Shown here piece after piece: positions 2,591 to 58,633 of a stretch of DNA of 64,000 bases. The position numbers and the translations under genes are program-made. The notes under the pieces are model-generated. The model saw only the letters and a program-made list of their open reading frames with translations. It did no database searches and was not told the origin of the DNA. The first letter of the stretch is position 1; each line of letters opens with the position of its first letter. This stretch comes from Styela clava (Eukaryota; Chordata; Ascidiacea; Stolidobranchia; Styelidae): assembly GCF_964204865.1 (NCBI RefSeq), contig NC_135251.1:24056001-24120000 (forward strand). Reading direction: 5' to 3'.

Positions 2591-5500
2591 CTATATATAC
2601 TGATCAACGACAACCTTATTCTTGCAGTCATCAGTACGGCAACGGAAACATGTTTCCATTTTTCTTTGACCTGAGTAAAAAATGATTTATGTCAGCATAG
2701 TAAAAAAAGGGTTTCTGCAACGAATTTCCTTAAAGTTGTATTTCATTTATCTTGTTATTTTGATAGATACGCCATAAAATGAATAAAAGCGAAAATATGT
2801 AAAATTCAGAATTATAATCAGGTCAATTTAAAGTTTTTGAAATAAGAGATAAAAATAACACTAAAGATACTTACGGACGTCCTTCTTCAGCTTTTTGACT
2901 TTAAGAAATGCTTTGCAGTTAAAAGCGTAATTGTCAGAATTCTTTTTCTTCTTGCAATATTCAAAACCTATCAACTTGTCGAAACATACTGCTGCTACTC
3001 CGCCCGCGGTAGTGGACTCATCTCCTGGCGTACTCCTTCCGGACTATAACGATATATATATAATGTAAGCTTTAAATGCAAATAACAACGCTGGTTTGGT
3101 CGAAATCTCTATTACCTAAATTGCATATGACATTCACTAACATCCCCATTTTGCCTTGAATCAGATTGAGCGCTAGCGACCCAAGTTTTTCTATAGTTAT
3201 TATTAATTTAGCATTATCGCTATAGATTACACTTTACTTGTAGTTCTGTCGCAGCTGGATCTGGGAATATATCCAAATCAAAATCTTCGGATTCTGTTTC
3301 GACATTTCCCAAATATCTTGATTCTTTGCCCAACCAGAAATCAGCTAGTTCACCGGCGTTGTATATGCAATAAGCCTGAATAAATTCATATGTTCTATTA
3401 TTCTCAGTCTAATTGTTTTTGAAGTGGGGTTTGTATCTGTCTTGCGTTATAAATCCCTATGTCCTCCGACAATCGAAGCAACTAATGACACCTCCCTTCA
3501 AAAAGTTTATTCCCCGCCGTTCAAATACGCGAGATACACCATTTGAAGGTTTGTTCAAATGATATCGAAGCATTGACAAGCGCTGATATTTGCGGAAATA
3601 TTTTAAAATATAACAATATTTGCGTACCAACCGATAATAATATATTTTTCACGTTGACGTTAAATCTACTCTAACTCAATATATATAATGGGACAAGTGC
3701 AACAAATATCAGACAAGGAAGACATGTGGAACAAGTCTGAGGCAAGAGAGACAATAAGTGTGGAATAAGTGGTATGGCCTTTGTGAGACACCGTTCAAAT
3801 ATTATTTTCAGGCTTTTTGGACGATTTAGCTAATTGGACGATTGTTCCCATCTACGTTTACGAAAATGTTAGGGTGTTTTAACCTCCCTAGTACTTTTGA
3901 TTTCAATTGAGTGTCTTTTAATCTACTGTGGTCATGAGGCAGACGCATTAGCAATATTTCGAAGCGGCGTCAAAAAAATACCGTCACTCCCTGGTACCAT
4001 ACTGCAATGGAATTAAGTCTTTTGGGCTAATAGTAGTTATATTCATGAACTCACAAAATTGGTGATTTCGCAGAGTTGAGCTTCCCACGCAACAAGTTGG
4101 CATGATTTCTCTGGCATAAATTTTCCGTTCTGACAATCGACTCGCGAACTTTTTTCTAATACGTAGTTTGGCTGGCATGCAACATAACATCTTTTGTAAA
4201 AGTCATTATTGATTCCGTCTCGACATTTTGTTTTTTCAAGGTCAGCTCGTGGCCCAAGCATGTTCCTATCACAGAAGTTTACAGCATTCCAGCCTACATT
4301 TGAAAAACAACACATATTTTCAAACTGCAAAACTATTTCCACAATAACATAAATTGCGTTTGTCAACTATTTAATAAAACTGAATATTTCATCGTATATT
4401 TTGATTTTTATAACGGTCCATAAAAACAAACAAATGAAATGCGCTACAATTTACAACAGGAAAATACCAGAGAACTCTGTTGTAGCCTATGTATACGCGA
4501 CCCTTAGCGACGTTGATTATAACTAATGCAACATACTTTGTAGGCATAACTTACTATTATAAGTAGCATTGAATCCTTTGAAATTATTGAATTCGTCGCT
4601 TAGGAATTGAACTATGACAAAATTTGTTTTTGATCGATATTTCATGGTTGCTCCTGTATTTGATCCAAAGAAATATTCACCATCTCCGTCGATGTCTTCT
4701 TCAAAAATCTAATTTGAAAATATAAACTAGGCGATAAATATTGTGCACATGATTTTGTTGTTTATAGCCAAACTTGAAAGATTAAACTTAGCCAAACTTA
4801 TTGAGAACGTTTAACAGATGCAATTGCCAGAAAACCGAGTCAAATTGCAGTAAAAATCGCAGAATATAATGTCATGTCAGTGTATCAACAAACCAATTTT
4901 ATCCTCGACAGCTTTGAAGCTGGCCTCCCTTACTGAGATGCCAGAATCGTAGATGTCCCTTCAAACAAAAGATATTAGAAAAGAGCCTTCCTATTAAAAC
5001 CCATTTAATTACAATAACCTATTTGCTTTGATCAATTGCAAGTGCACCATCCATTTACGTAATTAAAAAATTAAAGTATTATTATGCAACTTTTGTGATT
5101 AATGACCTAATGAACTGAGCAGTTTCAATTTCAGATTCTCAAGAAATCACGAAGTAATATAACGATTCGTATATCGTATTATAATATCGATTAGTTTCCA
5201 AACCATGTTTTCAAACACAAAAAATTTCTGACACGGGAGCGACTGAGAGCGAAAGAAAGTGAGAGGTATAAAGAGAGAAGGTGTCTATTCCAGAGACGCA
5301 CTAAAACTCAAATATTACAGCCTCACTTACCATAATGTAATCGGTCATTTCTCCGCCAGGCTCTCCAACTTGAAAATTGTCAAATTTGATTTCGACTATG
5401 TTACCAGCTTCAACCTCAATTACCCATTCACATAGCATATCTGCTGGATAATTAGCAGGGAACAACGGACTAGTGAAACGTCCCGATGGGGCTGTCATAA

Positions 5501-6158
5501 ATGATTCCCCGCAAATGTCCACTTCAAAATCGAATGGCGAAACATCCAAATTTGCTTCGATGAATGAATCTGAACATAAAAACAAATTAAAAAAAAAATA
5601 ATATAAAAATATTATCAATAGTATTATTCATAACAGTTACACTACATTTCAAGGGATCAGAATATTGGATCAATCATTTTGCGACGGTGACTCCTGGCAG
5701 TTTTGAGCGCAAATTAAATTCATAAATCGTTTTGCTAAAATGTTGTTATCGTCAGTGAACTTTGAGTTTATATTTGTAGTTGCCGGGATTTTGAGGATGT
5801 GGTGTAACTTATCACCAAGAAGCTTTTTGCCGGGTGATGTTGCTGTAATGAGGCCGTCGTGACAATATATTTGTGCAGTGGCGTTTGATTTTCTTTATCG
5901 TATCCGTGTGACAGATATTTTCGTGAATATTTAGTCAAATATTTATTAAATTTAGAAGATTTCGACACGTCCCAAATGAATATCGAACAACTTCCGTATA
6001 CATACTAACAACAAAAAGTCGAAACTAGAAAAAACAAAAAAGGCAGAATACCATATAGAGCCTGAAGCAACTGTATCCGTGATAAATATTAAATTACCTT
6101 GGGCGATCACGTGAGCACAAAAAATAGCTAAGATACATATCCATACATTCAACTCCAT
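2591..6158 (-). CDS. Gene A: secreted CUB/sushi-like 16-cysteine protein, 359 aa
   Basis: Seven coding exons on the minus strand, in transcript order: 6158-6098, 5569-5331, 4708-4555, 4293-4055, 3375-3238, 3043-2875, 2670-2591. All junctions are GT/AG, the phases are 1,0,1,0,0,1, and the total is 360 codons with TAG. Residues 1-20 form a signal peptide (MELNVWICILAIFCAHVIAQ). Exons 2-3 (about 40-151) make one CUB domain: CG..SGRFTSPLFP.NYP, LCEW.IEVE, the DY motif, then RSK.NFVIVQF.SD and the terminal GFNATY, which contains an N-glycosylation sequon. Only the first CUB disulfide pair is present. Exon 4 (152-231) is sushi/CCP-like with seven Cys. Exon 5 carries ELADFW and the acidic FPDP motif. 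Exon 6 is Lys-rich with three Cys. Exon 7 holds ETCFRCRTDDC. The protein is predicted to be extracellular; its role is unknown. It is closest to gene B, since both share KCRD, ITNF and a 138-nt exon 5. Confidence 0.88.
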
Positions 6159-9100: not shown

Positions 9101-9238
9101 GTTTACGACGCATTACATTGTTTATTGAGGTAAGCAGAAAAAATAGTACATAGAAAGTTGCAACGATATATAACAGAATGGTTACTCCATTTTGTACGTT
9201 TTATTAGTCCTCCTTGTGAAAATCATCACCATAAGCTT
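6159..9238. other. Intergenic between genes A and B
   Basis: About 3 kb of AT-rich DNA holding the unidentified promoter of gene A and the 3' untranslated region of gene B. A plus-strand open frame at 6911-7276 has no recognisable domain or splice context. No repeat with clear boundaries was found. Confidence 0.5.
9201..9206 (-). terminator. Polyadenylation signal of gene B
   Basis: AATAAA on the minus strand, about 33 nt downstream of the gene B stop codon. This placement supports the short exon 7 as the true last exon. Confidence 0.55.
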
Positions 9239-12200
9239 TTATATGTAAACTGGAACAGAGCAATCGACTGCCCTACACTCAAAACACGCCTTCACTTTTC
9301 TTTTTGCTGAAAAATTACAAAATATTATTGATTTAATAATATTCATGCTTTAGAGCAGCAAAGACTGCCAGGATGCCACAAATTTTGCAATAGATGTTTA
9401 TTCATTTGCAGTATGCGTTTTAAATAACATGATATGAAACATTCACTGTTCACGGAATGAAGAGCTTGACATAGCGAGAAAAATATTAGAAGCTTGTTTT
9501 TACGTTTATCTACAAATTTAAATTGTGATGAGTAATGGTGAATAAGCGACCAAATTAGTGAGTCATCTAATGCTAGTTGAAATTGGCTTGATATTGATGG
9601 AAATGAGTTTATTATAATAAATATGAGTAGTTTTAACAAGTTGTTGTTGTTGTTGTTGCTTTTCTCAACAAGCAATAGGCAAATCGTTTCAGTACTTAAA
9701 AAGATGGTTGAAGGCGCTTGAATGTTATTACTTTTCCTTTTTATTTAATTTTCCATTGAGTCATATGTGACCCGATACAGTTTTATTTTGATTTATAGGA
9801 ATCTTTTTTCTGTATATATAGAAACACATTAACCCGTCTCGCATGTAGGTCATTTCAGAACACTCGATGCTCTAAAAAGCCTTACCGTACCGGTACCTAT
9901 TGGCGACATTAATGTCCATATATTTGAGCATTGCTTTCATGTAAATATTGTAAATAGTCAGTATCCCAGTACCAACCTGTTCTACCAACCTATCTTGCAT
10001 GATGTTACACGAGAGATATTTTTTCTGTTTTGTATTATTTTAAAAATATTGTGTATAATTAATATTACACACTCACCAACTTCTTCCTTCAATTTCTTTA
10101 TCTTCAGAAACGCTTTGCAGTTAAAAAGATAATCGGTATTCAATTTCCTCACACAATAACTGTACTTCAACAAATTGTCTTTACACGGCGTAGGTTTGTT
10201 TACGGCTGTACCACCATCTGGAACTCGTCCAGTCTATAAAACGAGGAAAAAAGAATGAAATTTTTGTCAAAAAAACATCCTTTCCTTCCTAATCAAGATA
10301 ACGAACTGTTTTCGTAAAAATGAGAACCTCAGCACAAAACTCATGGTCGGCCGGTTAGCCAGCGAGTCCTAACTATTTTGAAGCCATAACACGATGTTCA
10401 ACTTATGTGAAGAAATTTAGAATAACTATTTATAAACGTAAGATTTGTTACTCTTTCCCAAATATTATAGTTCTATGCGTATTGGTGGATGTTTATACAA
10501 AACAGGATTTTGCTGGAAATATTATTTGGAGGAATGAAATATTTCACACCAAGAGTTGTGTCGACAAGCTTGCTTAACTTGGGTCAATTCTTCTCCAAAG
10601 CCATGTTTGAATACAAAATATTAAAAAAAAACAATAAGTAGTAAATGTTCAATCATACATGAATGTCTACTCCCGTCGGATCTGGAAATATGTCCAAATT
10701 AATTTCCACGGGATCTGCTTCAACTCCTTGCAAATACCTTGATTCTTTTCTCAGCCAGAACTCAGTAAGTTCACCGGTGTTGTATAAACAGTAAGCCTAA
10801 AATTAATCATTCGAATAAAAATAAATTGCATTAATTAATTTAATTTAAATTAAAAAAAATTTATTTAACATATGAATGTAACTAATAGTTAGTAATTACT
10901 AGTTAGTAATAAGAAGATTTATTGAGGGTTCTAGTTAGCCTCAAATGTTAAACCACATGCCTTAACACAATATCTTTTGATTAAATTTGTTCGTTAGAAT
11001 ATTCAAATGATTATAGCTATGCACATTTTCGACGCCTTGTCTCAGTCTACGAGCAATACTTTTAAAATTTGATTATATAACTTACAAAATTTGTAATTTC
11101 ACAAAGTTCAACTTCCCAAGCAACAAGTTCACAAACGTTCTCAGGTATAAATTTCCCGTTTACGCAATCAACTTTTGAACTTTTCGACAGAATATAGTTG
11201 GGATTGCAAGAAACGTAACATCTCTTATAGAAATCATTTTTGTTCTCGTCTCTACACTTTGTTTTCTCCGTGTTAACGGTTTGCCCAAATCCAAGGGAAT
11301 ATTTGTCGCAATATTCAATAGCATTCCAACCTAAATATTTTTCAAAAAATCGCATTTTCAGATACTCAGATAAATTCATCCACGATATGGTTATCCGATA
11401 ATCTGATCTATTTTTTTTTACATCGAACTCGGTTGGTAAAGATATCATGACGTCATAATTCAGGCAACTATTCTACAACCAAACTTTGAGTAAGAATGCT
11501 TTTAAGTAAAAACTCGTTTTATATGGAAAAATTCAGTTGCAATTACAGATAAATAATTCCGTATTTCATAAGGATTCGAGTGCTTGGTCCTGGGTTATGT
11601 GTTCATTTTAAATCTAACACAAAATTCTTTTGGCTTGAAAAAAGAAGACTTCGGATCTAAGCCAATTTCAGATCGAGGGTGTTTGGTGACCCCCTTCATG
11701 GGATACTTGCAATAACAAACCAGCAAACATTTTAGAAAAAAGTTTTATAAGATGAGTTATTGGTGATCTTCTTTTATAGATACCATTTCATGTATAAATT
11801 AGTTTCACACAATTAACTAAAAACTGTGGGTCGTGGCAATATAAAGTTTGAGTGTGGAGGAATTTGTGAAAATGTTTACTATTTCATGGAGTATAAACAT
11901 ATTATACCGATCAAATAGACCTACTATCAAACGTTGCTTTGAATCCTCTGAAATTATCAATGTCATCGCTGAAAAACTGAACAACAACAAAATTCGATTT
12001 TGATCTATATACGGCGCCAGTTTGCTGACCATAAAAGTACTGTTCCTTAGCATCTTCGTTGCTCTCAAATATCTGTAGACATTGATGTGAAAATATTGTT
12101 AAAGTTTCGTCCAGTCACTCTAGTGCAACGACGGTTTATGAAACATATTTGGTGACGAAATTTGCGCAACAATAAAAAATGAAATAAGGTTTGAAAACTA

Positions 12201-13082
12201 ATATTCTAAATTTGTTCAAGTATTCTGTTGCCCAAAATATGTCTTAACATGCTTATTTTTTGAGTTTAAAAGATGAGAAACTGTGAAAAAAATTGAAAGT
12301 ACCGATAAAAGTATTTCAGATTCAATTCTAGTAAAACGAACAACTTTAAGCGAGATTATGAATATAGTTTAAAAAGTTTCAATTTGAACCGCAGTGGATT
12401 TTTTATTTCCAAGAATATGATCATTACAATTTTGCTCAAAGGAAAATAAAATCATATAAAAGTTAAAATCAAGGTGTAGAAAAGTCAAAAAGCGTGACGC
12501 CAAGTTGGAGGCGAACTAAAGAAGCAATTTTGAACTGCTCAAAAGATAATTATAATGATCATTTACGAAATAAAATATTACCATGACGTAATCATTTATA
12601 TCTTCTCCAGAAATCCCGACGTTAAAATCATCAAATTTGATTTGAATTACATGGCCAACTTCCACTTCTATCACCCATTCACAAATTGTATTATTTGGAT
12701 AATCATTAGGATAAAACGGTGAAGTAAATTGTCCTGATACTCTGTCTAAAAACATTCCTCCACAACTACTCGAATCCACGAATACGTCATCTGGGTCCAC
12801 CGTCAGAGATGGAGGAATAAAGTCTCCAAAATTTGCTTCAATAAGGTCAAAAGTGTCTGGAAGACAATTAAAAATTCCATAAAAATGTTTTACTGTTTAA
12901 ATTAGTTTTACTCGTTTTTAGATTTTACGTTGAAATAACAAAACATATGAAATATCTGATATTATTATTGATTAGATTTGATCATTTTTTGCTTAATCAT
13001 TCTTTCGTAGTTTTTTTCACTCACCTTCCGCTGAGGCGTAGAGCCGGGAAAGTAAACAGATATAAATCCATATATTTTTCAT
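9239..13082 (-). CDS. Gene B: secreted CUB/sushi-like 16-cysteine protein, 362 aa
   Basis: Exons in transcript order: 13082-13025, 12856-12582, 12072-11925, 11330-11086, 10796-10659, 10233-10077, 9306-9239. All introns are GT/AG with the same phases as gene A, giving 363 codons with TAA. The start encodes a signal peptide, MKNIWIYICLLSRLYASAE. Exon 2 has a longer acidic linker (about residues 20-45) before the CUB core SSSCGG...SGQFTSPFYP. Exon 3 ends GFKATF, so the N-glycosylation sequon kept by the other five genes is lost here. Exon 4 is sushi-like: WNAIEYC, TKCRD, DFYKRCYVSC, VDCVNGKF. Exon 7 reads KVKACFECRAVDC, then VYI and stop. The mature part has 16 Cys, as in all paralogues. Gene B is the nearest relative of gene A by exon 5 length (138 nt in both) and exon 4 motifs. 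Confidence 0.88.
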
Positions 13083-16029: not shown

Positions 16030-19000
16030 CTAGATATACACGGTTGCTGTGCAGTCAATGGCGCGACACTTGAAACAAGCGTTCATTTTCTTTTCGGCTG
16101 AAAACAAATCAGTTTGTTAAACATAATATGCATATAAAAGTTTTCACAAAATTTATTTTGAAATGTTAAAAAACTTTGAACTTTGTAAATTTTATCGTGT
16201 CAAGTTTAATGGTTCACAACAATTCCCGGCATCTGCTACCAACTATTTGCTATTATACCGAGGTGCGGCTAAAATGAAACGGGACTGGCGTCACAGATTG
16301 CGCAAAACGATTAACCATCGGTAATCAACACTTTTGCAGTGTGGCGTAATATGTGTTCTTTGTTTAACAGCTGTTTTGACACAATATCGCAATTATTTTT
16401 GCTTTTCAGGATCCATAAGTGAATGTGATAAATTTCTTGTTGAAAAAAAATAAGCGTATAAGCATGAGCATTTTAATATTATTTTTTTTTTTATAAAAAT
16501 TATGGTAACATCTAATATTACTAATTATTCGTGGATTATTAGAGTTGATTTTGCTATAAAATAGTAGATCAAATATTCGAAAAGTGAAGAATGCGAACAC
16601 GCAATTTATTTTTGAAGAGAATTACTACATGCAATGTCAAGCGCACTTATTCAGAAGTGAAGGAGACTCCTTGAGCAAAAGTAGGAATGACCTCAGGATT
16701 GCCAAGTGTTGCTGAAATTATATAGATTTATGGTGCTGCCTGAAAATACCGATTGACGAGAGACTCGACTAAGTTCAAGTCAATAAAATTTATATGTGAG
16801 TTGAAGGCACATTTAAAATGTTAAGAACGTTCAGCTATAAAATCTAAGTCTAGGCTTCTTTTTTATAAAATAAAATTGCGCATTACAGCGTCAAGTACAT
16901 AAATTAAATTCGGTATTCAACGATAATAATCTTGGTATGAGTCAAGAAAATAAATTATGGTTGCATATACATTTTATTTATCTATTTTTCAAAATTTACC
17001 ATTTTTTTTGCTGAGTTTTTTCGGTGGAAATTTAGTGAACGCCTTGCAGTTGAATGCAAATTTCTTGGTTTTTTTCTTTCTGGCACAATAGCTGAATCCT
17101 ATTAACTTGTCAATGCAGCTCACTTCAGTACTGGTTGTTCTTCCAGCAACAATTGACTGTATAAGAAAAAAGTTGCGATTACTTAGAATAGAATGTATAT
17201 ACAAAATGGTTTTGATTGGTAGTGGTCGTATGCGGGTTCACATCTTCATTATGATTGCGTAGTTTGTGGATAAGGCTTCATTTTAGTTATACGGCAAATG
17301 AGCTATACAGCTATCACTCTCACCAGAGTCACCACTAAAGCCCAATTAGTTTAGTATATCGCACAGCATGTGCTAAGGCCCGTTTACAACAAACGTTCTA
17401 AGTGTACAATTAAAAAAAAATGTACATTTTACGCTTTAGTATTGTTCAATATGCTGGATATAAAATAAGAAATGAGAATTATATAAAACATAGATTCAAA
17501 GTCATTACATCCTGTATTATGTGAAACATTATTGCAGGGTATTATAATTAAAATATATATTCAGAGCTGTTAATCATAATCACATAAATCCATTAACCAC
17601 TTTCGTCGAATTTATTTCCCAATGTAAAATAGATTTAAGTTTGTTATTATTACTTATCAATCCTAATCGGTAAGTATGTTGATAGATATTTGGGGGCTCC
17701 CGAAGTATGCGAACCAAGATGGCGGACATCGGAATGTAATATGAGTACTAGGTTAGGGTTAGGCCTTAATTTTAGGTATAAATACTACAGGAGGCTCTTG
17801 GCTAGTCTTCGAACTGATAACAGGACTAAAATAAGGAATATTGGAAAAAAATTATCGCCTAACCCTAACCTGTTACCCATGTTACGTTCCGATGTCCGCC
17901 ATCTTGGTTCGCATACTTCGGGAGCACCGATATTTGTTTATTTGTCTGTCTGTCTGTCTGTCTGTTAGACATTTTCGTATGTTACGCGATATCTCACGAA
18001 AGCGAGGTTGAATCTGCTAATAATTTTGCATGTGCATTCATCATATCTCGGACCAGAAGCCCTTTGATTTTGAATGAATTATATCGTATAATTAGCGAGT
18101 TATTAATTAATTACTGAGTTAAATTTCAATTTTTATTTTTTTTTTATATTTAGCGAGCTCCTAATTAAATTTTTCGCGGAAGACCGATAAGTCGGCGGTC
18201 TCCGATCGCTATCTCGTTATGTAGTTATAGCGTTTTATTGGCAAAGAAAATTCTCAACTCAAAACAGCAAACAATGAAAGCCATTTCGAAAAATCTTACG
18301 ATAATCTGAGGAAATGAGTCAAAGTCGACGTCATCAATTTGGTCTGGATCTATGGGAGGTTCCTTTCTTCTCCAATAATCTGCCAGTTGATCAGGGTTGT
18401 ACAGGCATGTATCCTTAAATTTAAGAAGACGATGCCAGATTAATTAAAATGGATTTACTATAATGAACTAACTCAATTGATTCCCACTACCTACAGATAC
18501 GAAACAATCAGTGGTACAGATCTTCATAGATTCTGTAACTGTCGATTTGTTTTCACATTTCAACAAAAGCTATTGTACTCTAAGAGTTTTTTCGTATTTC
18601 TGTTTAAAAACGCACGTTTTTACACAAATATCAGGTACTCAGTTCAAAAACACACCGATTCAATTCAGGAATTGAAGAATTATATGTTCCTTTATGAAAT
18701 GACATATGAGGTATATATATATGGTATTTTGTTACTTTATTTGCCGATACGTACGATTATTGCTTACTGATAGCAGTTATCGTAGTTGGCTCATTCTCAA
18801 GGGATGCCAAAGGATGGGTGAGTCATGAATGAGTGGCTAAAAAATTAAGACAAAAAAGTTCATTGACTGACCAGGTTGGTGTTCTCACATTCATCAACTT
18901 TATACGGTATCAGATCGCAGACATGATTTGGACGAAAAGAGCCATTTTCACAGGTAACTTTGGTGGAGAATCCTGATAACATATAGTTGGTGTTGCACCA

Positions 19001-21280
19001 CAAGTAACAGGTTGAATAGAAATATTTTCTTGTTTTTTCCCCAATACAGTGCGTGAACATCAGATTGACAGTCCCGTCAATCGCCAACGATTCCTTGTCG
19101 CAAAGAGTGTCCCAACATAAAAGTAAAGTAAAAAAAATGTTTATTTTATTTTCTCAATCTTACTTAATCATGCATCTCATTCAAAAAAAAATTTTTTTTT
19201 TTTAAATACAATAGGTATTGATTAACAGATAATTTCACCCACTCGCATATCGTGTTGACGATAATACGCATCCTCCTTGTTCATTGGGTTTCTTATAAAT
19301 TTATAGCGGGCAACTTTGATGATCACAAGCAAATTAAAACTTACTGAAACACTTACTACGGTAAGAAGCATTAAATCCTTTGAAATTATAACTCCCATCG
19401 CTCCAAAACAAGACAATAACATAGTTCGATTTTGATGTGTAAGTGAGGCTCATGTTAGGATTTATTGTCATTGAACCTTTAAAATATTTTTCTACTTGGT
19501 CTCCGTTTTCCTCCATTTCATATATCTGCAAAATTTGTATACGATTTATTAATAATACATAAATATATAAGAATATTAAATTTAGAATTGGATATTAGAT
19601 TCCAGTATTATCGTAAGTGAAAAATAGCTACTCGAATTTGCTAGTTTATAATCATTATCTTCGGGAACAGATATTTTGACATATGGCAGGAATGAACCAA
19701 ATTGAAATTCTGAAATAATTCAGAATTTAAAAGCATTCACCAATTAAAATAATTCAATTTAATTCAACAATTGATAATGATACAAAATTGATTACTTCAA
19801 ATGATCTGAAAATTTTTCCTGATTCAAATTTAATAAATTCCGTTCACCCCCTTTATCAAATCATGACAAATGTGATAAAATATGACAAACGTACCAATAC
19901 GTAATCATCAAGATATTTATTATTTCCTAGTTCAAAATCATCAAATTTAATTTCGACAACATGATTTTCTTCTACTTCTATAATCCATTCGCATAAACCG
20001 TTTGCTCGATACTTTTTGGGATATCGTGGACTGGTAAACTGGCCGGAGCTGGCAGTTAAATGAGAAACTCCGCATTCGTCTTGATCTAACAAATCTTCAG
20101 AGATTGAAGTCGTACTGCTGGAGTCGTCTCCTGAATTGGAGAAAGAGTTTCAATTAAATAATTTAAAATATTCCCTTTTTAGAATTGTGTTGTAAATAAT
20201 AAGAAATTAGTTTAATAAATTCAATGCGCCATAGAAAATTACTGCAGGGGCACTGCGAAACTCGATCCAGGCCTAAAACGGACATTTTTTGTTAATCAAC
20301 ACCGGATTTAGATGTCAAATTTTTGTATTGGAATATAGAAAGGTTGGCAAAGCAACAGTCTGGAGTCGATATTTGGTTGCCTACATTTCGTAAGCTGTCA
20401 TCAGTGCCTAAATTTTTTTACTCGTCACAGCAGATGAGAGTTCGAACCAGCTCCGAGTTGAAGATTTATCAAATTTTTATTTTAAATTCGCTGCGCTGTC
20501 TGGCTGAGTATATAAAAGAGTCCTGTTTCAACACAATATTAGTTATTGGGAGTGTAATTTACGACTCTGACAAAATATTTGTTTGAATGGCTGTTTGAAA
20601 ATTCTTTGTGACGTGATAAAATGTGTTTTTACGTTGATATAGCTGGTAATGATGATAATAAATACTACATCGTCCTCTGACATAATCTTGGAAAATAGCA
20701 TCAAAGATAATGAGTCACTGACAATTATCTATGACTAAAACGTGTCTAGCTATTTTCTCTGATTATATAAAATATTTTCGTGAATATAATTGCCGTTGGC
20801 AAAAACGTCACATTCCTATGTCTTCAAGTCTTTCACATTTTGATAAAAACAGCTATGGTAGGAGATAAAGTATTATCATTGATGCGTATTCCGATATATT
20901 TCATTTTTATCTAGTACTGAACATTATTTACTATTGTATTTTTGATCAGTAACACTACTTGCCTATACGTCAACAAAAGCGAAATTTATGCCCAAAAGTG
21001 TTAATATCGCTTGCGTTTTTAGTATTGCCATAACTACCGAATACTCATTCTTTATCTGAGAGTCCTCAGTCATAAATAACTGCTGTTATGCGTCTCATTG
21101 AGTATAGTGGTCGTGTAACTGTGAACCTATCTATCTTTGGTCAAGTTTGAACGTAATTCTCTACGGTTCTTTGTTGTGTGTCTAGTAACTGAAAACATAT
21201 AAAAAAAATAATAAATTTTACTCACCCTCTACTGTTGCGAATAGGTAGGATGCTAGGAATATCAATATTATTTTATGCAT
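16030..21280 (-). CDS. Gene C: secreted CUB/sushi-like 16-cysteine protein, 347 aa
   Basis: Exons in transcript order: 21280-21226, 20130-19895, 19525-19357, 19116-18872, 18413-18300, 17156-17000, 16097-16030, giving 348 codons with TAG. The signal peptide is MHKIILIFLASYLFATVE, followed by a Ser/Thr-rich linker and the CUB core (ECGVS...SGQFTSPRYP, LCEWIIEVE, DDYVL). Exon 3 is long and carries NPNMSLTY, with an extra N-glycosylation sequon. Exon 4 (WDTLCDKESL...CENTNL) is the sushi-like block. Its upstream intron appears to end in AT, not AG, after a strong pyrimidine tract, as in gene D. Using this site keeps both frame and the 16-Cys count. Exon 6 could read through its donor to a nearby TGA, but exon 7 (KMNACFKCRAIDC, VYI, stop) matches the family and is preferred. 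Its closest relative is gene D. Confidence 0.85.
17693..17928. mobile_element. MITE, 236 bp, perfect 8-bp TSD, in gene C intron 5
   Basis: Terminal inverted repeats GGgGCTCCCGAAGTATGCG / CGCATACTTCGGGAGCACC enclose CCAAGATGGCGGAC and its complement. The element is flanked by the perfect duplication gatatttg at 17685-17692 and 17929-17936. It has no coding capacity. The 8-bp duplication fits hAT or Merlin-type elements. It lies between exons 5 and 6 of gene C. Confidence 0.9.
17944..17965. repeat. TCTG microsatellite
   Basis: A short run of about five TCTG/GTCT units just beside the MITE, within gene C intron 5. Confidence 0.8.
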
Positions 21281-35201: not shown

Positions 35202-35409
35202 GAAACTTGCTTTGTAGCTTTACATAATTTGCTACCACTGGGTTCAACCATTTTGGTCAAAAAGTTTGTTCTTATTCATGTTGATAATAAATTTATTTTG
35301 TTCGTTGTCGTTACTACAATGAATTTATAATTACAAACTATAATACAACAAGCACACATTGTTATGAAACAAATATATCCATTTAATCAAGTTGAGGCGT
35401 TGTTTAGTT

Positions 35410-45489: not shown

Positions 45490-45515
45490 TTATCAAGTAG
45501 AGAAGTTGTTTAGTT

Positions 45516-48500
45516 TTAATATATACGTTGTTGAATTGTTTTTATGAAAACCATATTTTGACAATTTTTCTCCCGACATTTGTAACAAGTTTCCATTTTT
45601 CTTGCCGCTGAAAAATATTTTAAATATATTAAATATATATAATATGAATTGCTCGACTAAATAAGTTTAAAATTTAAGGGAACGCGCATGAATGTGGTGT
45701 AGTCCAGTGGTTTCTGACCGCTGGTCCGCAACCCATTTCTAGTCGCTTTTGTGCCGGTCCTCGAGATGCTTGACCAAATCCGCTGGTGCAATTATAGTCA
45801 TCCTTATATGAGACGTTATAATTTTATATTATGATATTATTAACTTTTTTAAATTAAAAAAAGCGCGTATATTTACTTTTAGAATTTCGACATATTGAGT
45901 TGATAAAAAGAGTTTGGATAGCCCGGCTCATGATTGGACATTGAACAATAAAATCTTTTTATCGACACCTTACCATCTATTTGCAGACAATACAAGCGAA
46001 CGAAGTAGTATAGAATATTTTTCAAAACCGTGCGCAGAATTAGATTACCTTTGTAAAACGCCATCGTCGTACGCGTTTTATATTTTCAAATTTTGCTCGA
46101 ATGTTCCCAGCCCACGTGGATGTAAAAATGTGTACTAGATTCTAATTGTTTGCTAGAGCTGTTTGTTGTCGAATCATTTTTGGTGTTTGGTGATGGTTTG
46201 TTCTAGTCCACGCCAAAACATTGGAGTATGTTACTCAACCACAAGCTATTATTTTTCGTTTCACTAATTTCAATATTTAGTTACCGGTCCGTGAGATACT
46301 TTTATTTGATTTAACCCAGTGGTTCCCAAACTAGGGTCCGCGGACCTTTTGGGGTCCGTGAAGTACTTTCCGAGGGTCCGCGAAAGAAATCTGTTGGATG
46401 GCTCAAAGTTTGATAATGCAAAAATTAACTGCTCAAATTTGGAAAAACACATTTATCGCATTATGATGCTTTACAATCTCTGCTGAGGACACTGATTCTT
46501 CACTTTTTGTTTCGATTAGGCCTTCCCGATTGTGACGTCACAAAGCTATGGCAGCTCCTGCCACGAACAAACCGCGGCGTCTCATGCCATGGTTTAATGG
46601 CGCTATAATTTAGTAATCAGTATTATCGGCATATTAACAAAGTCATGCGCCGTATTTTTGTTTAATATACCAAAAAAAGTACCAACCTACTCATTGTTTG
46701 TCACCAACAGGGGCAGCCCTGCCAATACATCCGACATGCCTTGGTTACGGCATCAAAATTTTACCCGACATGATTTTTTAATTTGCTGCCGTGGTACCGG
46801 TTCGGGGCAGCTAAAAATTCAGTCGCCGTGGTTTAACCGGAGCTCCAGAAGTAATCTATGTGCACCAAGATGGCGCACAACCTGAACATGGTATTGTGTA
46901 CCGGTTAGGGTTCAGGTCGTGCGACATTTTGGTACATATGCTTCTGGAGCGCCGTTTAGCCATAGCGCAAGTGTTTGGAAATCCCGCTAAATACTTAAAA
47001 CTGCACTTGGAGGAGTAGATGGCGCTGCCTTTTTGCATGCTTGTTGTTATAGGAGAGAATTACAGTAGGTAGTTGATAAAGTATGCCACTCCGTTTCTAA
47101 ATGCTGATTTACGCTTTTGTTTTGAAAGGTGGATAGCGTTAAATATAGCGCAGTCAGAAAGGCACTACGTTTTAGTTTTTAGATGTCAAATTTAGTCTTT
47201 GACACACGGTAACGGTAGGCATATATTTTTACGTTTTCAACTCTGTATTATCAATTTCAAAATGTCTTCTAAAATTAAAATTGAGATAATCGTATGTAAT
47301 TTTATCGTGATAAACGCAGGTGGAGATATGTTTTGCACTACACCGTGTGGAGCATTTATTTTTGTTGTGATCTTGTTTTATGTGATATCTTTCTGTCTTT
47401 CTTTGATAATGTTTTATTTTAGTCAATTAGGGCACAGGGCCGCGAAACAAAAACAAAATTGCAAGGGGTCCGTCAGACAATTTTTTTGAAAAAGTTTGGG
47501 AACCACTGATCTAACCGGTCACGAAGGTAAAAAGGTTGAGAACCACTGGTGCAGTCTAATATACGACACTTAAAAAAGATTCTGACTTAATTGTAAGATG
47601 CGGAGGTGGCAAAATTAATAATGCACGGATATTGCTATGCGGATCGAAAACTCATTAATCACTCATTGCTACTCGTTTCTTAGATATTGTAATTACAAAA
47701 CAAAACGGCGCTGCCGAAGTATGTGCACTTAGATGGCGCACAACCTGAACCCTAACCTGGTACACATACTATTTTTAGGTTGTGTGCCATCTTGGTGCAC
47801 ATACTTCTGAAGCTCCGAAAAACGATAAGTTGGGTTTTCCTAAACAAATAAGTTGTGCTGGAGAGGTCTCTCACAAATATTTTTTTTTTTAACTTTTGTT
47901 TGATTCATTTTGTCGGAATTTACCTACATCGAGTTACAACGCAATGCCAAGAAGCAATTCATAATGACAGCAATGTAAGTTTAGTAAAGTAAATAACATC
48001 CAAAACAATAATTGAGAAATGTGTGCAAGGCAATGTGTAAACACAGAGTCCAGAAATGGACTTTTGAAGGAAACCCAATATGACGTTACAGTCAATTTTC
48101 CCTTGTTGATTCGATGAAATATGATTTCATATTATGTCGTCACAAATTATAAATGAAGTCCCCTCAACGAAATCCAGCGAGCGCAACTTGCCACTAACTA
48201 ACATATTGTGTTTTTTTAACCAGTTGCTACTATACGTGAATTCTTTTGACAATATTTTATCTTGAAGAGCATCTAAAGTAGAATCTTTTGCATACTACAT
48301 CGTGAAACATCAAAAATAAAAATTAATCTATCATTAACAAATCTGCTACATCCCATAATCAACAACTTTATATATATTCATATAAAATTATGAGATACTT
48401 GGGTTTCACTTACCTGATTTCAAGTTATCGTCGTCCACATGTAGAAAATCCAAGCATTGAAAAGTAAATTTACCGTCATCATCTATTTCACAATAGCTGT

Positions 48501-51500
48501 AACCTAAAAATTCTTCATCGAAACAGGAAACCTTTATTTCTGTTGTTAATGCTTCTCCCTGTTGCGTCTGTGAAATGAATAAAATGATAAAGTATACTAT
48601 TATTTGCATGAAATTCTGGAAAGGCCTTCAAATGTTTGTTTTACTATCATGACTGTCAAATCGTTGAATAAATGTCAAATATATTTAAATTTTAATTTCG
48701 ATTTAGCTTTCAGTACAATAATTCTTTTTGTATTATAATGGAGGTAAATTTGAATACTTCATTGTTGCCGGAAAATAATGCGTTTTCATGTACCTGGTAA
48801 AATGAGTCAGAAACTAGTGGATCAGGAAATTTATTCAAAAGCGTCATATCTCCTCTCATATCTCTCCGAGATGATTTTTTTGAGAAATAGTTGGCCAGTT
48901 CGTAAGAAGTATAAATGCAATATTTCTGCAAGACAAAAGAATTAGTAATATTGGTTTTACAATACAATAGTAATAGTAGAATTTTTCGAGAGACTTACTT
49001 GAAAATATTTACCAGACACATACTATTGAGTAAGAATTTATACATAAAAATGAGCGCTCGCGAAGTATGTGCACCAAGATGGCGCACAACCTGAAGCCTA
49101 ACCGGGTACACATACTATGTTCAGGATGTGCGCCATTTTTGTGCACATACTTCTGGAGCTACAAAATGTTTTTTAATTAAACACTTGAGTCGTATTAGTC
49201 GGTGTAATGAGGTTTTAAGACTGAAAAGACGCAAATACAGAAGAGTAGAAATCCAAACGAAGACTAGTTTAAAACCCTATTTACCATGTTAGTTATGTCA
49301 CACAAAATGACTTCAAAATCAATCAGTCCACATGACTCTTCCGGAACGAATTTCCCCTTTTGACATTTGACCTTTGAACTGCCTTTCAGAATATAGCCAT
49401 CATTACATAACACGTAGCAAGTTTTGTAAAAATTGTTTCGTATTTCATCTTCACAGGTCGTAACATTTCCCGACTCTATTGAAGCTATGTCACAATAATC
49501 GATCGCATTCCAGCCTGTGAAATGTTTAGAATATCATAAACTTGGTCCCCGTATTGACATGCAAGAGATTGATATTGACCAAGCAGGACTCGAAAGAAGC
49601 ATATTCAAAAAAAAGATTGTCTTTTCGTTGACTTCTCCCACTTTATGAATATTATACGTTTTGTTGGGAAAGGCTCATAGATAGCAGCTACCTATGGTAT
49701 ACTCATTTTCCTGCTAAAATATATGTAGAGTATAAGCTTTATAATTACTGGCGATGTCAATTTATTTGATGTCAGTTTTCCAAAGGAAAGAAAACTACGT
49801 CCATATTGTTATCTCATGTTTATAGATTCCAAGCAGTTCGATGTATACACTGATGCAGCTTTGAATGTAAATAGTTTCTTCTCCAACGATACAACTACAA
49901 ATAATCTCTATATTCCACTTACTATCATAAGTAGCATTAAATCCTCTGAAATTGAAATCGCCATCGCTAATAAATTGTATACTGACTCGATTTGATTTAG
50001 AACGATATTTTGCATCAAAAATAGGAGTATAGAAATAGACACCATCTTCATCTTTCCCATCCTCAAAAATCTAAAATTTTTTGTATAAGTTCTCTACAGA
50101 AAACAAACATGAAACACGCTTTTCTTCAATAAAACGTTTTAGACTTCCATTTTAACAAGACCCTTGACAAACTGTCCAGTTATGCGTATTTAAATGCTGG
50201 CTTTGAGTGGGACGCAATTTTAGCTCCATAAACGTCCCAAGTTCTTGAACCTTGAATAAAGTCATTGCATAATTTCAAATTAAGGAGAGTAAGGTTTGGG
50301 TCGTTTCTAGTTTGTGTGCCCAACTCACAAGAAGGATCTATCTATAATATTTTTGCGTATCATGGCGCTTGACCTCGAGGTATGTTAGATAAAACACCAG
50401 CATGAAAATGTCACAATTACAAATCATCACGCTTACAAATTATTTTTTAGCAAAAGTATTATCTTTATGTTGAGTATAAACTTATTTCAACAAAGGCAAT
50501 TGACAGACAGCAGAGAAAAATGCCAATGCAGTACAGCGATTTCAATTCAAAATGCCCTACAAATCATGTTTCGAAACAGTTTAAATCGAGTATATATACA
50601 AAAAGATAAAAGTCAACAACACCAGTAATATAATTATTTTTCTTCAAAAGCTGTAATTTTTAGTTTTCACATTTCTCAATTCTTACCACCAAGTAGTCAT
50701 TTCTAGTTTCGTTCCATGCCAAGAACCGATCGTCAATTTGAAAATCCGCAAAATTGATTTCAATAATATGTCCGGAATTAACTTCGATCTTCCACTCACA
50801 AAACTGGTTTCTTGGGTAGTTGAGTGGATATAGAGGTGATGTGAACCATCCTGTTGTCGATGTAAATATATTTTTACCGCAGACATCATCTTAATACAAA
50901 ATATTAAAATGCTTTAATTCAATGTTAACTTCAAACAATAAAGGTAGGCATATAATGATTGTTCCGTATTAGCATTTTCAATTTTTTCTCATACCCTCAC
51001 GAATACATATACCTTCTTACAACATTCTATGTAAAGCTATTTAAGTAAGTTTATGGAGCAAGATATTAATTTAAAGATTTCATGCATTCCTAACACTGTT
51101 AGGTCTTAACTACGGACATTTGTTTTTCATACCTTTCATAACATTTTGCTTTAATTTGGAGTTGAAATGATTATATTAAGATTAGATAGGCTCATTTATC
51201 GACTCGATTCAAGTGAGACGTGAGACATCATTCATCGAAGAATAACAGTGACTCGAATTATCTAAATGCAATAACTCGCATTCGTCATCAATTAACTGTC
51301 AGTGAGACTTGACTTGGATTCGGACTGGAATCACCCGTGACTAGAATAGATTCGCATTTTAAAGGGTTCTACTCAACACAGCTGAATATGCAAGTATGAG
51401 GAATGAAACTGTCATTAGTGACAAAAAAACTCATAGTGACATGATCCGATCATATCAGGTTTTGTAATTCGATCGTTCTGATAACCATGAAAGTGAATCC

Positions 51501-51767
51501 GGATCGGCTTTTGAAATTCGGGAATATATGTTTGAAGAATTTATTGACAAAAAGACATATTTTCCTATGAAACGTACAAAATAGTTTTCAATGCTGCATG
51601 CTGGAAGAGAATTATATCTCGTCGATATGATTTCTGCCACAAATGTATATTATATTGATCTCAAAACACAAATGTCAAAACAGTTTAAAGGATTTGTAGT
51701 AGATTTTACCTTCTTCCGCATTAACCATCCACATCAGTAAAACACATATACAAAATGTTGTTTGCAT
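45516..51767 (-). CDS. Gene F: secreted CUB/sushi-like 16-cysteine protein, 338 aa
   Basis: Exons in transcript order: 51767-51710, 50889-50687, 50070-49923, 49514-49285, 48925-48794, 48567-48414, 45607-45516. All introns are GT/AG, giving 339 codons with TAA. The signal peptide is MQTTFCICVLLMWMVNAEE. CUB: VCGKN...TGWFTSPLYPLNYP, FCEWKIEV, NDYLV, RSKSNRVSIQF, GFNATY. Exon 4 (WNAIDYCD...CGLIDFEVILCDITNM) is sushi-like with seven Cys. Exon 5 has FPDP, and exon 6 is unusually acidic for the family (EIDDDGKF). The last intron is 2.8 kb and holds nested hAT-like elements and a MITE. Exon 6 could read through its donor to a stop three codons on, but exon 7 (KMETCYKCREKNC) completes the motif and the 16-Cys set. 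It is paired with gene G by the shared GLIDFE motif and 148-nt exon 3. Confidence 0.86.
46317..47508. mobile_element. Nested non-autonomous hAT-like element, 1.19 kb
   Basis: Termini CAGTGGTTCCCAAAC and GTTTGGGAACCACTG, with GGGTCCGCGGACC and GGGGTCCG subterminal sequence. Flanks are atttaacc and atctaacc (7 of 8). It contains a MITE at 46839-46953 and no transposase frame. Confidence 0.83.
46839..46953. mobile_element. MITE (short subtype) inside the nested element
   Basis: GGAGCTCCAGAAGT...CACCAAGATGGCGCACAA at the left and the diverged complement ending CTTCTGGAGCGCC at the right. The flanks gtttaacc and gtttagcc match at 7 of 8. Confidence 0.78.
47707..47816. mobile_element. MITE (short subtype), unit 2 only
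   Basis: GGCGCTGCCGAAGTATGTGCAC to CACATACTTCTGAAGCTCC around GATGGCGCACAACCTGAACC. Unit 1 at the corresponding site (about 35990) has no insert. The flanking 8-mers match only loosely. Confidence 0.8.
49053..49161. mobile_element. MITE (short subtype) with an empty site in unit 1
   Basis: AGCGCTCGCGAAGTATGTGC to GCACATACTTCTGGAGCT, in gene F intron 4. The flanks taaaaatg and acaaaatg resemble an 8-bp duplication. Unit 1 (about 36961-36980) reads cataaaaatgttttctaatt with no element, the expected empty site. Confidence 0.85.
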
Positions 51768-53975: not shown

Positions 53976-56900
53976 TTAAATGTAAACAACATTCGTGCAT
54001 CCAATTGCTCGACATTGGAAACATAACTCCATCTTCACCGAGGCTGAAAAATAAATATGATAATTTCCATTCGATTTTTATTTAAATTATTTCATCTGAT
54101 TTCATTTTATCAAATAACATATGTTTGATCCTTTTTATTTTAAATTGATTTGTTCGCAATTCAGCTTCTGGCAAATAAACTGATCTCAACTTGATGATAT
54201 TTTACATTTTTAACAACTTTCTTTTTATTTGAAATGAATTTGTACCTAAACGAATAAAATTCGGATTTTTCTCTAACTGAATCACGCAAAATATTGTAAA
54301 CTTAAAATATATTTGCGGACAGATTATAACCGTTTGAATTCGTGCACAAATATTATTAAGTACAAGCCTGTTTTTAAGCAGCATGTTACTTAGTCCAAAA
54401 TGATTCTTATTTGTGTAAATAAATTTTGTTGTATTCAATCATTTGGTTGCAATTCAGTGACACTAGCATACCTGCTTTGTAGCCCAATTTCCTGATTTTT
54501 AAAAAATCTTGACATTTGAAGGCATACTTCTTATCTTTCTTTCTTGCACAGTAATTGTATTTCAATAATTTATCGAAACAGGATGCTTCGATTCCAGGAG
54601 AAGAGTTTGGGCCAACTCCAGATGGCGTGTCCTATAAAACGAATATTTAATTGTACGTAAAATTCTAAATATATTTCCACCATTTCAGGCATATTATTTT
54701 AAATTCAAAACAAAGTATTAGAAGACACATTTTGTTTGCTTTAATGACAACATTTTAATCTTAATTTTCAAATTCAGTGCAACATTTTATTGAAAATTTA
54801 CGTTAATCCATACATATCTTCGTAATTTCGATAGAAAGACGTGAACGACTTAAGTGTTGAATGTTAGTGTGAGAATAAGCGCTAATAATAATTATTTTCT
54901 ACTCAAATAATGTATTTAAAATATGTGTTTCTTACTCAAGTAAATATATGAGATAATAATATACACACAGGTCAACGTGTTATATGATAGATAGTTTCAA
55001 ATATAAACTATCAAGGAGACTTACTGTCGGTGGAGCATTTTCTAACGGATCAGGAAATATATCTAGAACTGATTTATTATCATCCATATCGCCATCGTAG
55101 TGTGTGTTAGAAATTTGGTTCCATAAATATTCCGCCATTTCATACGTCGAATACAGGCAATATCCCTAAAACAAGTAGAAAAGTTTTCTGAGGCAACAAT
55201 GAAACTTCGTCTACTGTGAAAACTAGAATCGCCGTTATTCAGCCAGATGAGTGACCTATTCCTTGATAGATGCATATATGTAAGTATGTTGACTTTTTAT
55301 CCCAGTAAATATAGGAGAAAATAAGACAAACGAGAACAAAATGAGATTCGCTTATGTAACAATTTATTACTTTCACACGGGGGAATGATACTTTTCTTCG
55401 TGCCCAACTACATTACAAAATAGAAAGCCTGAGATGCGTTGCATAGGTTTCATTTTCTTTCAGCCAAATGTTATTCCTATGAAACTTGTAACTCGCAATT
55501 CGGATAAGGGGGCTAAATTATTTGTTTCAGCAAAAGATAAATTCAAATGTTTTGATTATTAAACATTTAAATCTCGTTACCATATCTGTTAATTCACACA
55601 GGCGAGCTTCAAAATCTATCAATCCGCATGGACTTTCCGGTAAAAATTCTCCGTTGTTACAGTGAACCTTCGAACTTTTTTTAAGAACGTATCCTTCCAA
55701 GCATGTAACGTAACAACGTTTATAAAAATGATATTTGCTTTCATCAAAACATCTTGCTTTTTTCACTGATTGTATTTGAATTGTATACTTCTCGCAGTAG
55801 TCAAGTGCGTTCCAACCTGTTTGAATGAGCCAGTGAATAATTTGAAAGTGATGTAAATGCAGACATATAGACCACCGTGTTTGAAGATAAATACTCATTT
55901 ATGTATATTGAACTTGGAAATTTCTATCTATGTTTTTTCTTGCAAAAATCATTTTGATGAAATTTTAATGTTTTTTTTATGTGCTTTATGTAATTTTCGT
56001 TTTGAATCGTTCCTTCTTTCATTTCATTTGGTGTAGATATCTATGCGAGTGTAGTAGTTTAAAAAGACAATCACAAGGCAATAAATAAAGTGGTGAAATT
56101 CAAAACTTTAAGAAAGCGTTCTCATTTGTACCACCTCACCGCCAACATTTCCTCATTCCAGAAAATCTTACCACGTAACTACGTGGTAGCTCGTGACACG
56201 CTTTACATAAATCTGGTACAAACATTTAATACAAAATAAATAAAGCTAGTAGTCAGTTTCGGTGCACGTTATCCCTTTGTATACCGAAAACGTTGGACGA
56301 ACTACGGCCCACGGGCCAAATTCTACCCGCTTTTCAATCTGGCCCGCCTGATGCTGCCACAACCAAACTAAAACCAAATTTTGCCGTTTCAGCTGAAAAA
56401 TATTGCAGGAAATTGTTGAGATTGCGAGTACACCCCCCCCCCCCCCAATCTGACCACTGAATCTGTACGTTTTCAACAATGACAGTATATATGAAAGTAA
56501 TAATTAGTTGAACGAAGACTCAACTTACTCTCATAAGATGCGTTAAATCCTCTGAACTCATCTACTTCGTCACTCACAAACTCAACGATGACTTTATTCG
56601 ACTTTGAACGATATGTATTATGGCCAAAAATGGATGGAAAATAACGTCCCATGTCCTTTGTATCGTTTTCGTATATCTTAAATGATGAAGTAGGATAAAT
56701 GTGATATAATATTACTTGTAGAAATTCAACAGATTTTCGATGAAATTTGAGTATTGGCTATATACTAAAATATATTAATTGCACGTTTTTATCTAAATTT
56801 CTTAACGAATACGAATTCTGGTAAAAAATTATTTTGCATTTTGGTATTGTAGCGTGATATAGTCAAAAGCAATTCAATTCATTGGACAGAAACAAATTCG

Positions 56901-58633
56901 ATTCTAAAACAAGTAAACAAGGCAAAATTGGACGCTGAGAAAATTAAAAACAAAAAAACGGGTCGGACCTCCTGAAGTATGCGCACCAAGATGTCGCAAA
57001 ACTTGAACATATTATGTGTACCAGGTTAGAGTTAGGGTTGTGCGACATCTTGGTGCGCATACTTCAGGAGCACCAAAGGGTCTATTAACTTCTTCCATCT
57101 TTAATCACTGAAAATATGGAATCGATTGGTACATTAGTTACTTTTTAAAACAGTAAAGTATTGCATGTTTAAGATCTCAGTTCCAATGAGGGCCTATGAT
57201 AATCCCAGCTGTTAACAAGAGCCTAACTCTCTTATCCAATATACAAAAGACAGTAAAATGGTAAAAAAATTCCTATTCGTATCATTTTGAACCTCAACCA
57301 ATTTTGATTTAAAGTACATTCAGTTACCTGCTGCTTAGAGACTTTTATGGCGATCGTGTTGCACACATCACGAGCAAATTAGGCGTTTTGGTACTCTCGA
57401 ATTATGTGAACCAAGATGGCGGACCGGAACGTAGTATGTGTATAAATACTACGGGAGTCACTTGGATAGTCCCCGAACTCGTGATAGAACTAAAATATGG
57501 AAAACACATACTAGGTATGTACACATACTACGTTCCGATGTCCGCCATCTTAATTCACATACTCCGGGAGTACCGGCGTTTTAATCCAACATATTATGAT
57601 TTATTCAGTATTGATTTTTGATTTTTGAACTTTTACCAATACATAGTCATTTATGATATCGCCAAGTGGAAATAAACCGCTTCCTAATTCAAAGTCATTG
57701 AACGTTATTTCTATGATGTTTCCAGGTTCAACTTCGATCACCCAATCACAAACTTGATCGCTAAGATATTCCAACGGATAAAACGGACTTGTGAACGATC
57801 CTGATGGTGAAGTCATCAATTTTGGTCCACATATTTCTGATAAAATAAAAATTAAAAAAAGTGACAAAAAGTTCTCGTGGATGGAGTTTACCAGGGCATC
57901 GACTTCCTTCTTAATTTTTGTAAACAATGGCTAAACATCAATAACCTAACGGCGAGGCACTAATAGAGGATTGAACAACTGCTTAGGTGCATTTCGCGCG
58001 AAGACAATTTTTAAAGCATGGTTGCAAACTCCTTATTTCTGGGATTTTTCTATTTATTTGTCAGTTTTCAGTCGTATTTCCAAATGTAAAACATAAATGA
58101 AATAGATCCCCAAAGTTCTTTTAGTTTCCGAGAAGTTGTAGTGAGGAGGCAGTAATCGAAAATTAGCCATGAAAAACTACTATATACTTGGACAAAGTTA
58201 ACTATCAGTATTTTTAAATAGCAGGCGATCAAATAATCTGAATCCAAATGGTGATTGTGAAACATATAAAGCATTTTGTACGCGCAAAAATACTTCAAAA
58301 ATGAGAACCCACAATTTTGCAATGATAATGTGTAAGAATAATGTTTCTGTGCTCAAGAAGAGGGGAAATATTCACTGCAGGCGCCGATTTACAGCACCTT
58401 CGGGTTAGAAAACTGCAAACAATTTTCATTACATTACAAATTTGGCTGGCACATTGCAAGCTGATTTGAATCCTTCAAGATTTTTGCAAGTAATACGAGT
58501 TTGCCATTTTTACAATGAAAATACAGTAAGAGTAAAGAAATTAGAGTTAACGTGACTTACCTTCTGGCGCTGGCACAATGATGCATTGAACAATCGGTAT
58601 ACTGATCAGTAAAAACTTGGCTACACTCAACAT
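53976..58633 (-). CDS. Gene G: secreted CUB/sushi-like 16-cysteine protein, 341 aa
   Basis: Exons in transcript order: 58633-58561, 57836-57637, 56676-56529, 55816-55581, 55165-55025, 54631-54472, 54043-53976. All introns are GT/AG with family phases 1,0,1,0,0,1, giving 342 codons with TAA. The signal peptide is MLSVAKFLLISIPIVQC plus a few residues. CUB: ICGPK...SGSFTSPFYPLEY, VCDWVIEVEPG, NDYVL, RSKSNKVIVEF, GFNASY with a glycosylation sequon. Exon 4 (WNALDYCEKY...HFYKRCYVTC...CGLIDFEARLCELTDM) is sushi-like with seven Cys. Exon 5 has the acidic FPDP motif. Exon 6 carries SCFDKLLKYNYCARKK, close to exon 6 of genes A-C. Exon 7 is KMELCFQCRAIGC, then VVYI and stop. The mature protein has 16 Cys. 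Confidence 0.88.
56433..56446. repeat. Poly-C tract
   Basis: Fourteen consecutive C residues in gene G intron 3, next to degenerate transposon-like GGCCCACGGGCC sequence. The length may be imprecise, as homopolymers are error-prone. Confidence 0.7.
56965..57074. mobile_element. MITE (short subtype) in gene G intron 2
   Basis: GGACCTCCTGAAGTATGCGC to GCGCATACTTCAGGAGCACC around CCAAGATGTCGC. The flanks aacgggtc and aaagggtc match at 7 of 8. Confidence 0.85.
57390..57574. mobile_element. MITE, 185 bp, perfect 8-bp TSD, in gene G intron 2
   Basis: GGTACTCTCGAATTATGTGA to TCACATACTCCGGGAGTACC, with CCAAGATGGCGGAC inside each end. The perfect duplication ggcgtttt lies at 57382-57389 and 57575-57582. 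It is a relative of the 236-bp element at 17693. Confidence 0.9.

Follow-up and report, generated by a model that had tools for sequence, protein, structure and literature searches.

Gene Content and Structure of the Locus

A stretch of 64,000 nucleotides from the ascidian Styela clava (contig NC_135251.1, here C2, positions 24056001-24120000; hereafter the window) harbors a tandem gene family predicted to encode secreted proteins with a CUB domain, a CCP/sushi domain, and a cysteine-rich C-terminal unit, termed C8. Profiles were built for each exon and run over all reading frames, splice sites were set by phase, and signal-peptide exons were located in a separate scan. Six complete genes (g1 to g6) and one fragment (gf) were found head to tail on the minus strand, between position 2591 (stop codon of g1) and position 58633 (ATG of g6), which reproduced exactly the coordinates given in an earlier interpretation made from the letters alone (the sequence-only reading). 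Each complete gene consists of seven exons, the spliced frame terminates at a stop codon in all six cases, and the intron phases (1,0,1,0,0,1) are identical in the six models.

Listed in order of transcription, the exons of g1 (2591..6158, 359 aa) occupy positions 6158-6098, 5569-5331, 4708-4555, 4293-4055, 3375-3238, 3043-2875, and 2670-2591; those of g2 (9239..13082, 362 aa) lie at 13082-13025, 12856-12582, 12072-11925, 11330-11086, 10796-10659, 10233-10077, and 9306-9239. The gene g3 (16030..21280, 347 aa) was assembled from 21280-21226, 20130-19895, 19525-19357, 19116-18872, 18413-18300, 17156-17000, and 16097-16030, and g4 (23537..29319, 338 aa) from 29319-29274, 28714-28503, 28011-27837, 27169-26925, 26229-26119, 24906-24747, and 23604-23537. 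Further upstream, g5 (45516..51767, 338 aa) comprises 51767-51710, 50889-50687, 50070-49923, 49514-49285, 48925-48794, 48567-48414, and 45607-45516, and g6 (53976..58633, 341 aa) comprises 58633-58561, 57836-57637, 56676-56529, 55816-55581, 55165-55025, 54631-54472, and 54043-53976. Intron ends were GT or AG in 70 out of 72 cases, the exceptions being two of the 36 acceptors, those preceding exon 4 in g3 and in g4. Non-AG acceptors had also been suspected for exons 2 and 7 of g1, and were ruled out, as the sequence reads AG at both.

The fragment gf (approximately 35387..36851, minus strand) represents a decayed 3' portion with exons 5 to 7 only; no exon 1 to 4 was found in the profile scan of all frames, a phase-0 donor was looked for at its exon 5 and not found, and its exon 6 reads into a stop. 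Its divergence from g5 amounts to 16% over 126 nt of exon 5 and 10% over 114 nt of exon 6. A single-exon open reading frame on the plus strand, resembling a multi-pass membrane protein, is present in two copies (34101-35201 and about 44357-45362) showing 92% identity over the 300 nt compared; no Pfam match at an expectation value (E) of ≤0.001 was obtained for the first, and the frame of the second is split. The duplicated block in which both copies are found also included gf, which is the 3' end of a gene similar to g5.

Cysteine Plan and Features of Secretion

In all six mature proteins, 16 cysteines were counted, two of them in the CUB part and seven, one, three, and three in exons 4, 5, 6, and 7, respectively, so that the invariant 16-cysteine plan proposed in the sequence-only reading was recovered in every model, with a caveat on exon 4 of g3 and g4 discussed below. 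In the alignment of the mature proteins, 67 of the 286 ungapped columns are invariant, among them every one of the 16 columns containing any cysteine (hypergeometric P 1.8e-11). The precursors contain between 16 and 18 cysteines, as exon 1 contributes zero to two. Judged from the sequence, the plan is that of a CUB domain (two cysteines), a six-cysteine sushi/CCP domain, and the C-terminal eight-cysteine unit C8.

Exon 1 appeared signal-peptide-like in all six genes according to the sequence scan, one to four N-glycosylation sequons were detected per precursor, and no hydrophobic segment was seen after exon 1 in g1 to g6 by inspection, no predictor having been run. Taken together with the high cysteine content, these features suggest that the products are secreted glycoproteins. 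The existence of a secreted CUB/sushi-like family, as claimed previously, is supported by the leader-like first exon, by the Pfam matches of the CUB part, and by the sushi domain in exon 4.

The CUB and CCP Domains

The whole-protein Pfam scan included g1 to g5, and in all five the CUB profile (PF00431) was matched over positions 1-110 with E-values from 4e-18 to 1e-22 (66-81 bits, cut-off 21.4); the corresponding exon of g6 (C2:24113613-24113831) also matched above the cut-off. CUB domains usually, though not universally, contain four cysteines forming two disulfides. The second disulfide is absent from all six cluster proteins, which feature two cysteines. In place of the Glu in the FxxFxLE motif, a calcium ligand in complement CUB domains, five of them have Gly and one has Asp. 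Compared with PDB sequences, the CUB domain of g2 was most similar to that of cubilin; enteropeptidase and MASPs were also among its best solved relatives, and C1r and C1s among its matches.

The first six cysteines of exon 4 (for example, positions 4055..4293 of g1, minus strand) are read here as a CCP/sushi domain, the seventh belonging with the downstream C8 unit; six of the seven fit the six-cysteine CCP pattern of selectins. Exon-4 peptides matched the Pfam Sushi profile (PF00084) in four of the six genes at E≤10 (best 2e-4), aligning with its second half. At the level of whole proteins, g1 and g5 reached 15.0 and 18.6 bits (cut-off 20.7), and no Sushi match was obtained for g2 to g4. A profile of exons 4 to 7 recovered eight PDB sequences at E≤10, all of them CCP-containing (best E 0.0011) and all aligned to the exon-4 part only. 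AlphaFold modeling of exon 4 alone, based on a six-row alignment, yielded a mean pLDDT of 47.3.

The C-Terminal C8 Unit

The C8 unit is composed of the last cysteine of exon 4 and of exons 5 to 7, which contribute one, three, and three further cysteines (in g1, exons 5 to 7 lie at 2591..3375, minus strand). In the cluster it follows the pattern C-x7-C, a variable linker, C-C-(F/Y)xC and, near the C-terminus, C-(F/Y)-x-C-x4-C. All eight cysteines are invariant in seven of seven sequences, i.e., g1 to g6 and a homologue on another chromosome described below. Searches of these seven sequences against Pfam and against NCBIfam, a library built for prokaryotes, gave nothing significant, the best E-values being 0.02 and 0.16, respectively, each in one of seven. 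The C8 profile had no significant match among PDB sequences (a single match, E 1.9), and exons 6 and 7 alone, represented by eight sequences, retrieved nothing from the PDB at E≤10. The sequence-only reading had described exons 4 to 7 as a module that could not be assigned to any named family; this description holds for the last cysteine of exon 4 together with exons 5 to 7, and fails for the first six cysteines of exon 4, which correspond to a CCP domain.

Homologues Elsewhere in the Genome

The genome scanned comprises 376.6 Mb in 379 contigs. It contains an exon of glycoside hydrolase family 6 (35.4 bits), a single weak marker in keeping with a tunicate, since GH6 in animals is linked to the cellulose synthase of tunicates; a search for COX1 gave no match. 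The composite exon 6-7 query produced 11 matches at E≤10, none of them outside the window. Of the nine matches obtained with the exon-4 query, six fell within the window (E≤3e-14), and the other three, located outside it, had E-values of 0.098-2.07. The genome search scores the best candidates only, so further relatives may exist; the composite query missed both loci on C1 described here.

One of the three outside matches of the exon-4 query led to a homologue at C1:1.21 Mb, on another chromosome, with the architecture CUB-CCP-CCP-C8. Both of its CCP domains feature six cysteines, the spliced frame is open with AG/GT at each junction, and the successive exon phases are 0,1,1,0,0,1. Its identity with g1 is 19%, and its Pfam Sushi score of 22.1 bits exceeds the cut-off of 20.7. 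The CCP domains of this homologue led in turn to a second one at C1:15.70 Mb (E 0.004), consisting of a CUB domain, one CCP domain with the same seventh cysteine, and exons 5, 6, and 7 (CUB-CCP-C8). Its exons 4 to 7 have the same phases as those of the cluster, and the C8 exon phases are common to both homologues. An additional CUB domain is located upstream of it, which may or may not be part of the same gene.

Several other candidates were rejected. An exon-6-like match at C2:23988505 (E 1e-4 and 2.4e-4) was judged to have arisen by chance, though it is open to another reading: its neighbors are LDLa-like exons, with CUB/LDLa exons upstream and a stretch that appears protease-like by eye nearby, and the surrounding 26 kb contained no exon-7 match and a lone exon-4 match (E 0.48) on the opposite strand. 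The matches at C18:6500453 and C1:8713023 are sushi exons. Only exon-4 matches were detected in the 10 kb around the former; around the latter, at C1:8708-8718 kb, exon-4 matches were accompanied by one exon-6 match (E 0.01) and by two weakly matching exon-7 stretches (E 0.55 at best), which were attributed to chance. The array at C3:8193-8201 kb consists of CUB exons, with no exon-4, -5, or -7 matches and one exon-6 match (E 0.39).

Arrays of CUB exons were also observed in other places. At C3:15714168-15809810, eight such exons occur in frames open for 145-161 aa; the CUB profile is covered from position 1 to 110 by seven of them and from 5 to 110 by the remaining one. Further clusters were noted at C3:8181-8222 kb and C14:13363-13408 kb.

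Divergence and Selection

The proportions of synonymous differences (pS), calculated without exon 1, were saturated at 0.75-0.89, and those of nonsynonymous differences (pN) ranged between 0.24 and 0.41, pN being far below pS in all 15 pairs. Saturated pS combined with unsaturated pN indicates that g1 to g6 are old duplicates under purifying selection on average, and the earlier description of the set as fast-diverging was not upheld. Paralogue identities of 40-62% are not in themselves a sign of fast evolution. The dN/dS comparison suggested in that reading points to an average far below 1; with the NG86 method the corrected dS was infinite in 15 of 15 pairs, so that the ratios have no finite value.

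Mean identity was lowest in exons 5 (37%) and 6 (39%), compared with 46-51% in exons 2 to 4 and 48% in exon 7. In the tree, g1 and g2 were paired (0.84), as were g3 and g4 (0.78), and g5 and g6 were separated from the rest (0.99). The homologue was placed beside g3 and g4 (0.99), but its branch was 1.9 changes per site long, and its position was therefore not taken as the root.

Other Features of the Window

A 69-bp tandem repeat of about 1.1 kb (23511-24637) occupies mostly the last intron of g4 and contains open frames on both strands. A perfect inverted repeat, whose arms of 128 nt are separated by 18 nt, is located between g3 and g2 (14518-14791) and resembles a hairpin-type mobile element. 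Between gf and g5, broken retroelement-like frames were observed (37350-39382, minus strand), in one of which a CCHC-like knuckle was recognized by eye; the two frames scanned had no Pfam match. Adjoining g6, positions 61697-63865 of the minus strand contain an open frame of 722 aa, in which Pfam matched a CCCH zinc finger (21.8 bits).

Proposed Role and Alternative Explanations

We consider it about an even call that g1 to g6 encode secreted, disulfide-stapled recognition or adhesion glycoproteins, composed of a signal peptide, a CUB domain without its second disulfide, a six-cysteine CCP domain, and C8. CUB and CCP domains are protein- and glycan-binding modules, and an adhesion or recognition role appears the most likely function. 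Extracellular proteins or glycans would be bound by an arm made up of CUB and CCP, while the tip provided by C8, which is strongly charged, could give each paralogue its own partner. The net charge of exon 6 ranges from +6 to +12 in five genes and is -10 in g5; such variation in charge at the tip of an otherwise constant scaffold would suggest partner-specific binding. The array might then represent a set of specificities acquired through old duplication and slow divergence, and not through rapid change.

Several observations weigh against this interpretation. The signal exons of g1 to g6 were assigned by sequence scan only. At exon 4 of both g3 and g4 the acceptor is non-canonical, with AT at the homologous place. 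Each gene has an in-frame AG upstream, from which exon 4 would start at 19152 in g3 and at 27187 in g4; its use would lengthen the exon and add one cysteine (LLLC-WDTLC and YITC-YDTYC, respectively), and the count of seven cysteines in exon 4 is therefore uncertain for these two genes. In the homologue at C1:15.70 Mb, exon 6 contains two cysteines instead of three, i.e., one C8 cysteine was lost. Moreover, C8 could be two units rather than one, as its halves are linked by a variable linker. That C8 is in fact a strongly degenerate CCP, making the proteins a CUB domain followed by two CCPs, seems very unlikely: in the homologue at C1:1.21 Mb, the stretch preceding the second CCP (PDPAYHC...C) resembles, by eye, the one preceding C8 (PDPDVLHVC...C), but an hhalign comparison of exon 4 with C8 aligned only the 12 residues common to both by construction, Pfam Sushi was absent among the matches at E≤10 in seven of seven C8 sequences, and eight cysteines stand against four or six.

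Structural proteins of the extracellular matrix, the tunic, or the egg coat, in which CUB and CCP would cross-link matrix parts and the paralogues would have diversified by tissue rather than by ligand, represent an unlikely yet credible explanation. Slow average evolution fits it, as do larvacean house proteins, which contain CUB (oikosins 4 and 6) and CCP domains (oikosins 17a and 23) (PMC3390340); single short CUB-CCP units without repeats fit it less well, as does the exon-6 charge of g5, strongly unlike that of the other paralogues. It is distinctly unlikely that the proteins act as soluble complement regulators or decoys, the CUB-CCP arm binding complement fragments or proteases in the manner of SEZ6 proteins. 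The CUB-CCP order is that of C1r/C1s/MASP, and MASPs, C1r, and C1s are among the PDB matches of the g2 CUB domain; however, all six cluster genes have one CCP only, the putative calcium-ligand Glu is missing, and neither EGF nor serine-protease domains were matched at E≤10 in g1 to g5 or in the homologue at C1:1.21 Mb. SEZ6 proteins with CUB and CCP domains reportedly inhibit complement (PMC8081827).

That the proteins serve gamete recognition, self-sterility, or allorecognition and were diversified by positive or balancing selection, in line with the roles suggested in the sequence-only reading, is likewise given little probability. The array is local, its products are putatively secreted, sushi domains occur in Botryllus allorecognition receptors (PMC12065747), and egg-coat proteins are bound by a CUB domain of Halocynthia proacrosin (PMC9265791). 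Against this stand the purifying average with saturated dS, the lack of an immunoglobulin (Ig) domain (none matched at E≤10 among g1 to g5) and of a visible membrane segment, unlike fester and FcoR, and the polymorphic Ciona sushi protein vCRL1, which reportedly proved to have no role in self/non-self recognition at fertilisation (PMC9265791). For fester, one study reported purifying selection at most codons, yet 15-27 codons above 1 (PMC3549757), a pattern suggesting that a few selected sites are possible in g1 to g6 despite the purifying average. With fast divergence removed, one ground for presuming an immune or fertilisation role is lost. The most far-reaching reading, in which the disulfide fold of C8 would be new and the CUB-CCP-C8 proteins would make up a soluble repertoire for recognition, specific to tunicates, with a conserved staple and paralogue-specific charged tips for allorecognition or gamete choice, is regarded as highly improbable.

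Comparison with Known Systems

No account of a CUB-CCP-C8 architecture in a tunicate was found in the accessible parts of the open-licence papers searched. Botryllus fester and FcoR are also tunicate gene families with a sushi domain, but they feature Ig domains and transmembrane segments (PMC12065747), none of which were seen in the cluster proteins. SEZ6 proteins similarly combine CUB and CCP in one protein (PMC8081827). They have two to three CUB and five CCP domains, compared to one CUB, one CCP, and C8 in the cluster proteins. As for the individual domains, the cluster CUBs resemble PF00431 in their strong profile match and differ in the missing disulfide and the replaced Glu; exon 4 matches the second half of PF00084 and has the six-cysteine pattern of selectin CCPs, whereas g1 and g5 as whole proteins score below the cut-off.

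By sequence, g1 to g6 are thus known domains combined with a C-terminal unit lacking a significant Pfam, NCBIfam, or PDB match. C8 is a candidate orphan extracellular domain, with an eight-cysteine pattern and conserved intron phases in three separate genomic places. Its profile can be used on other tunicate genomes, and the cluster offers a small, bounded gene set for expression and binding tests. The domain order of C1r/C1s/MASP is CUB-EGF-CUB-CCP-CCP-serine protease; the cluster proteins share with it the succession of CUB and CCP, and the homologue at C1:1.21 Mb also the two CCPs, but they carry C8 in place of EGF and protease. The C8 family appears to be built in the same domain grammar as the complement proteins.

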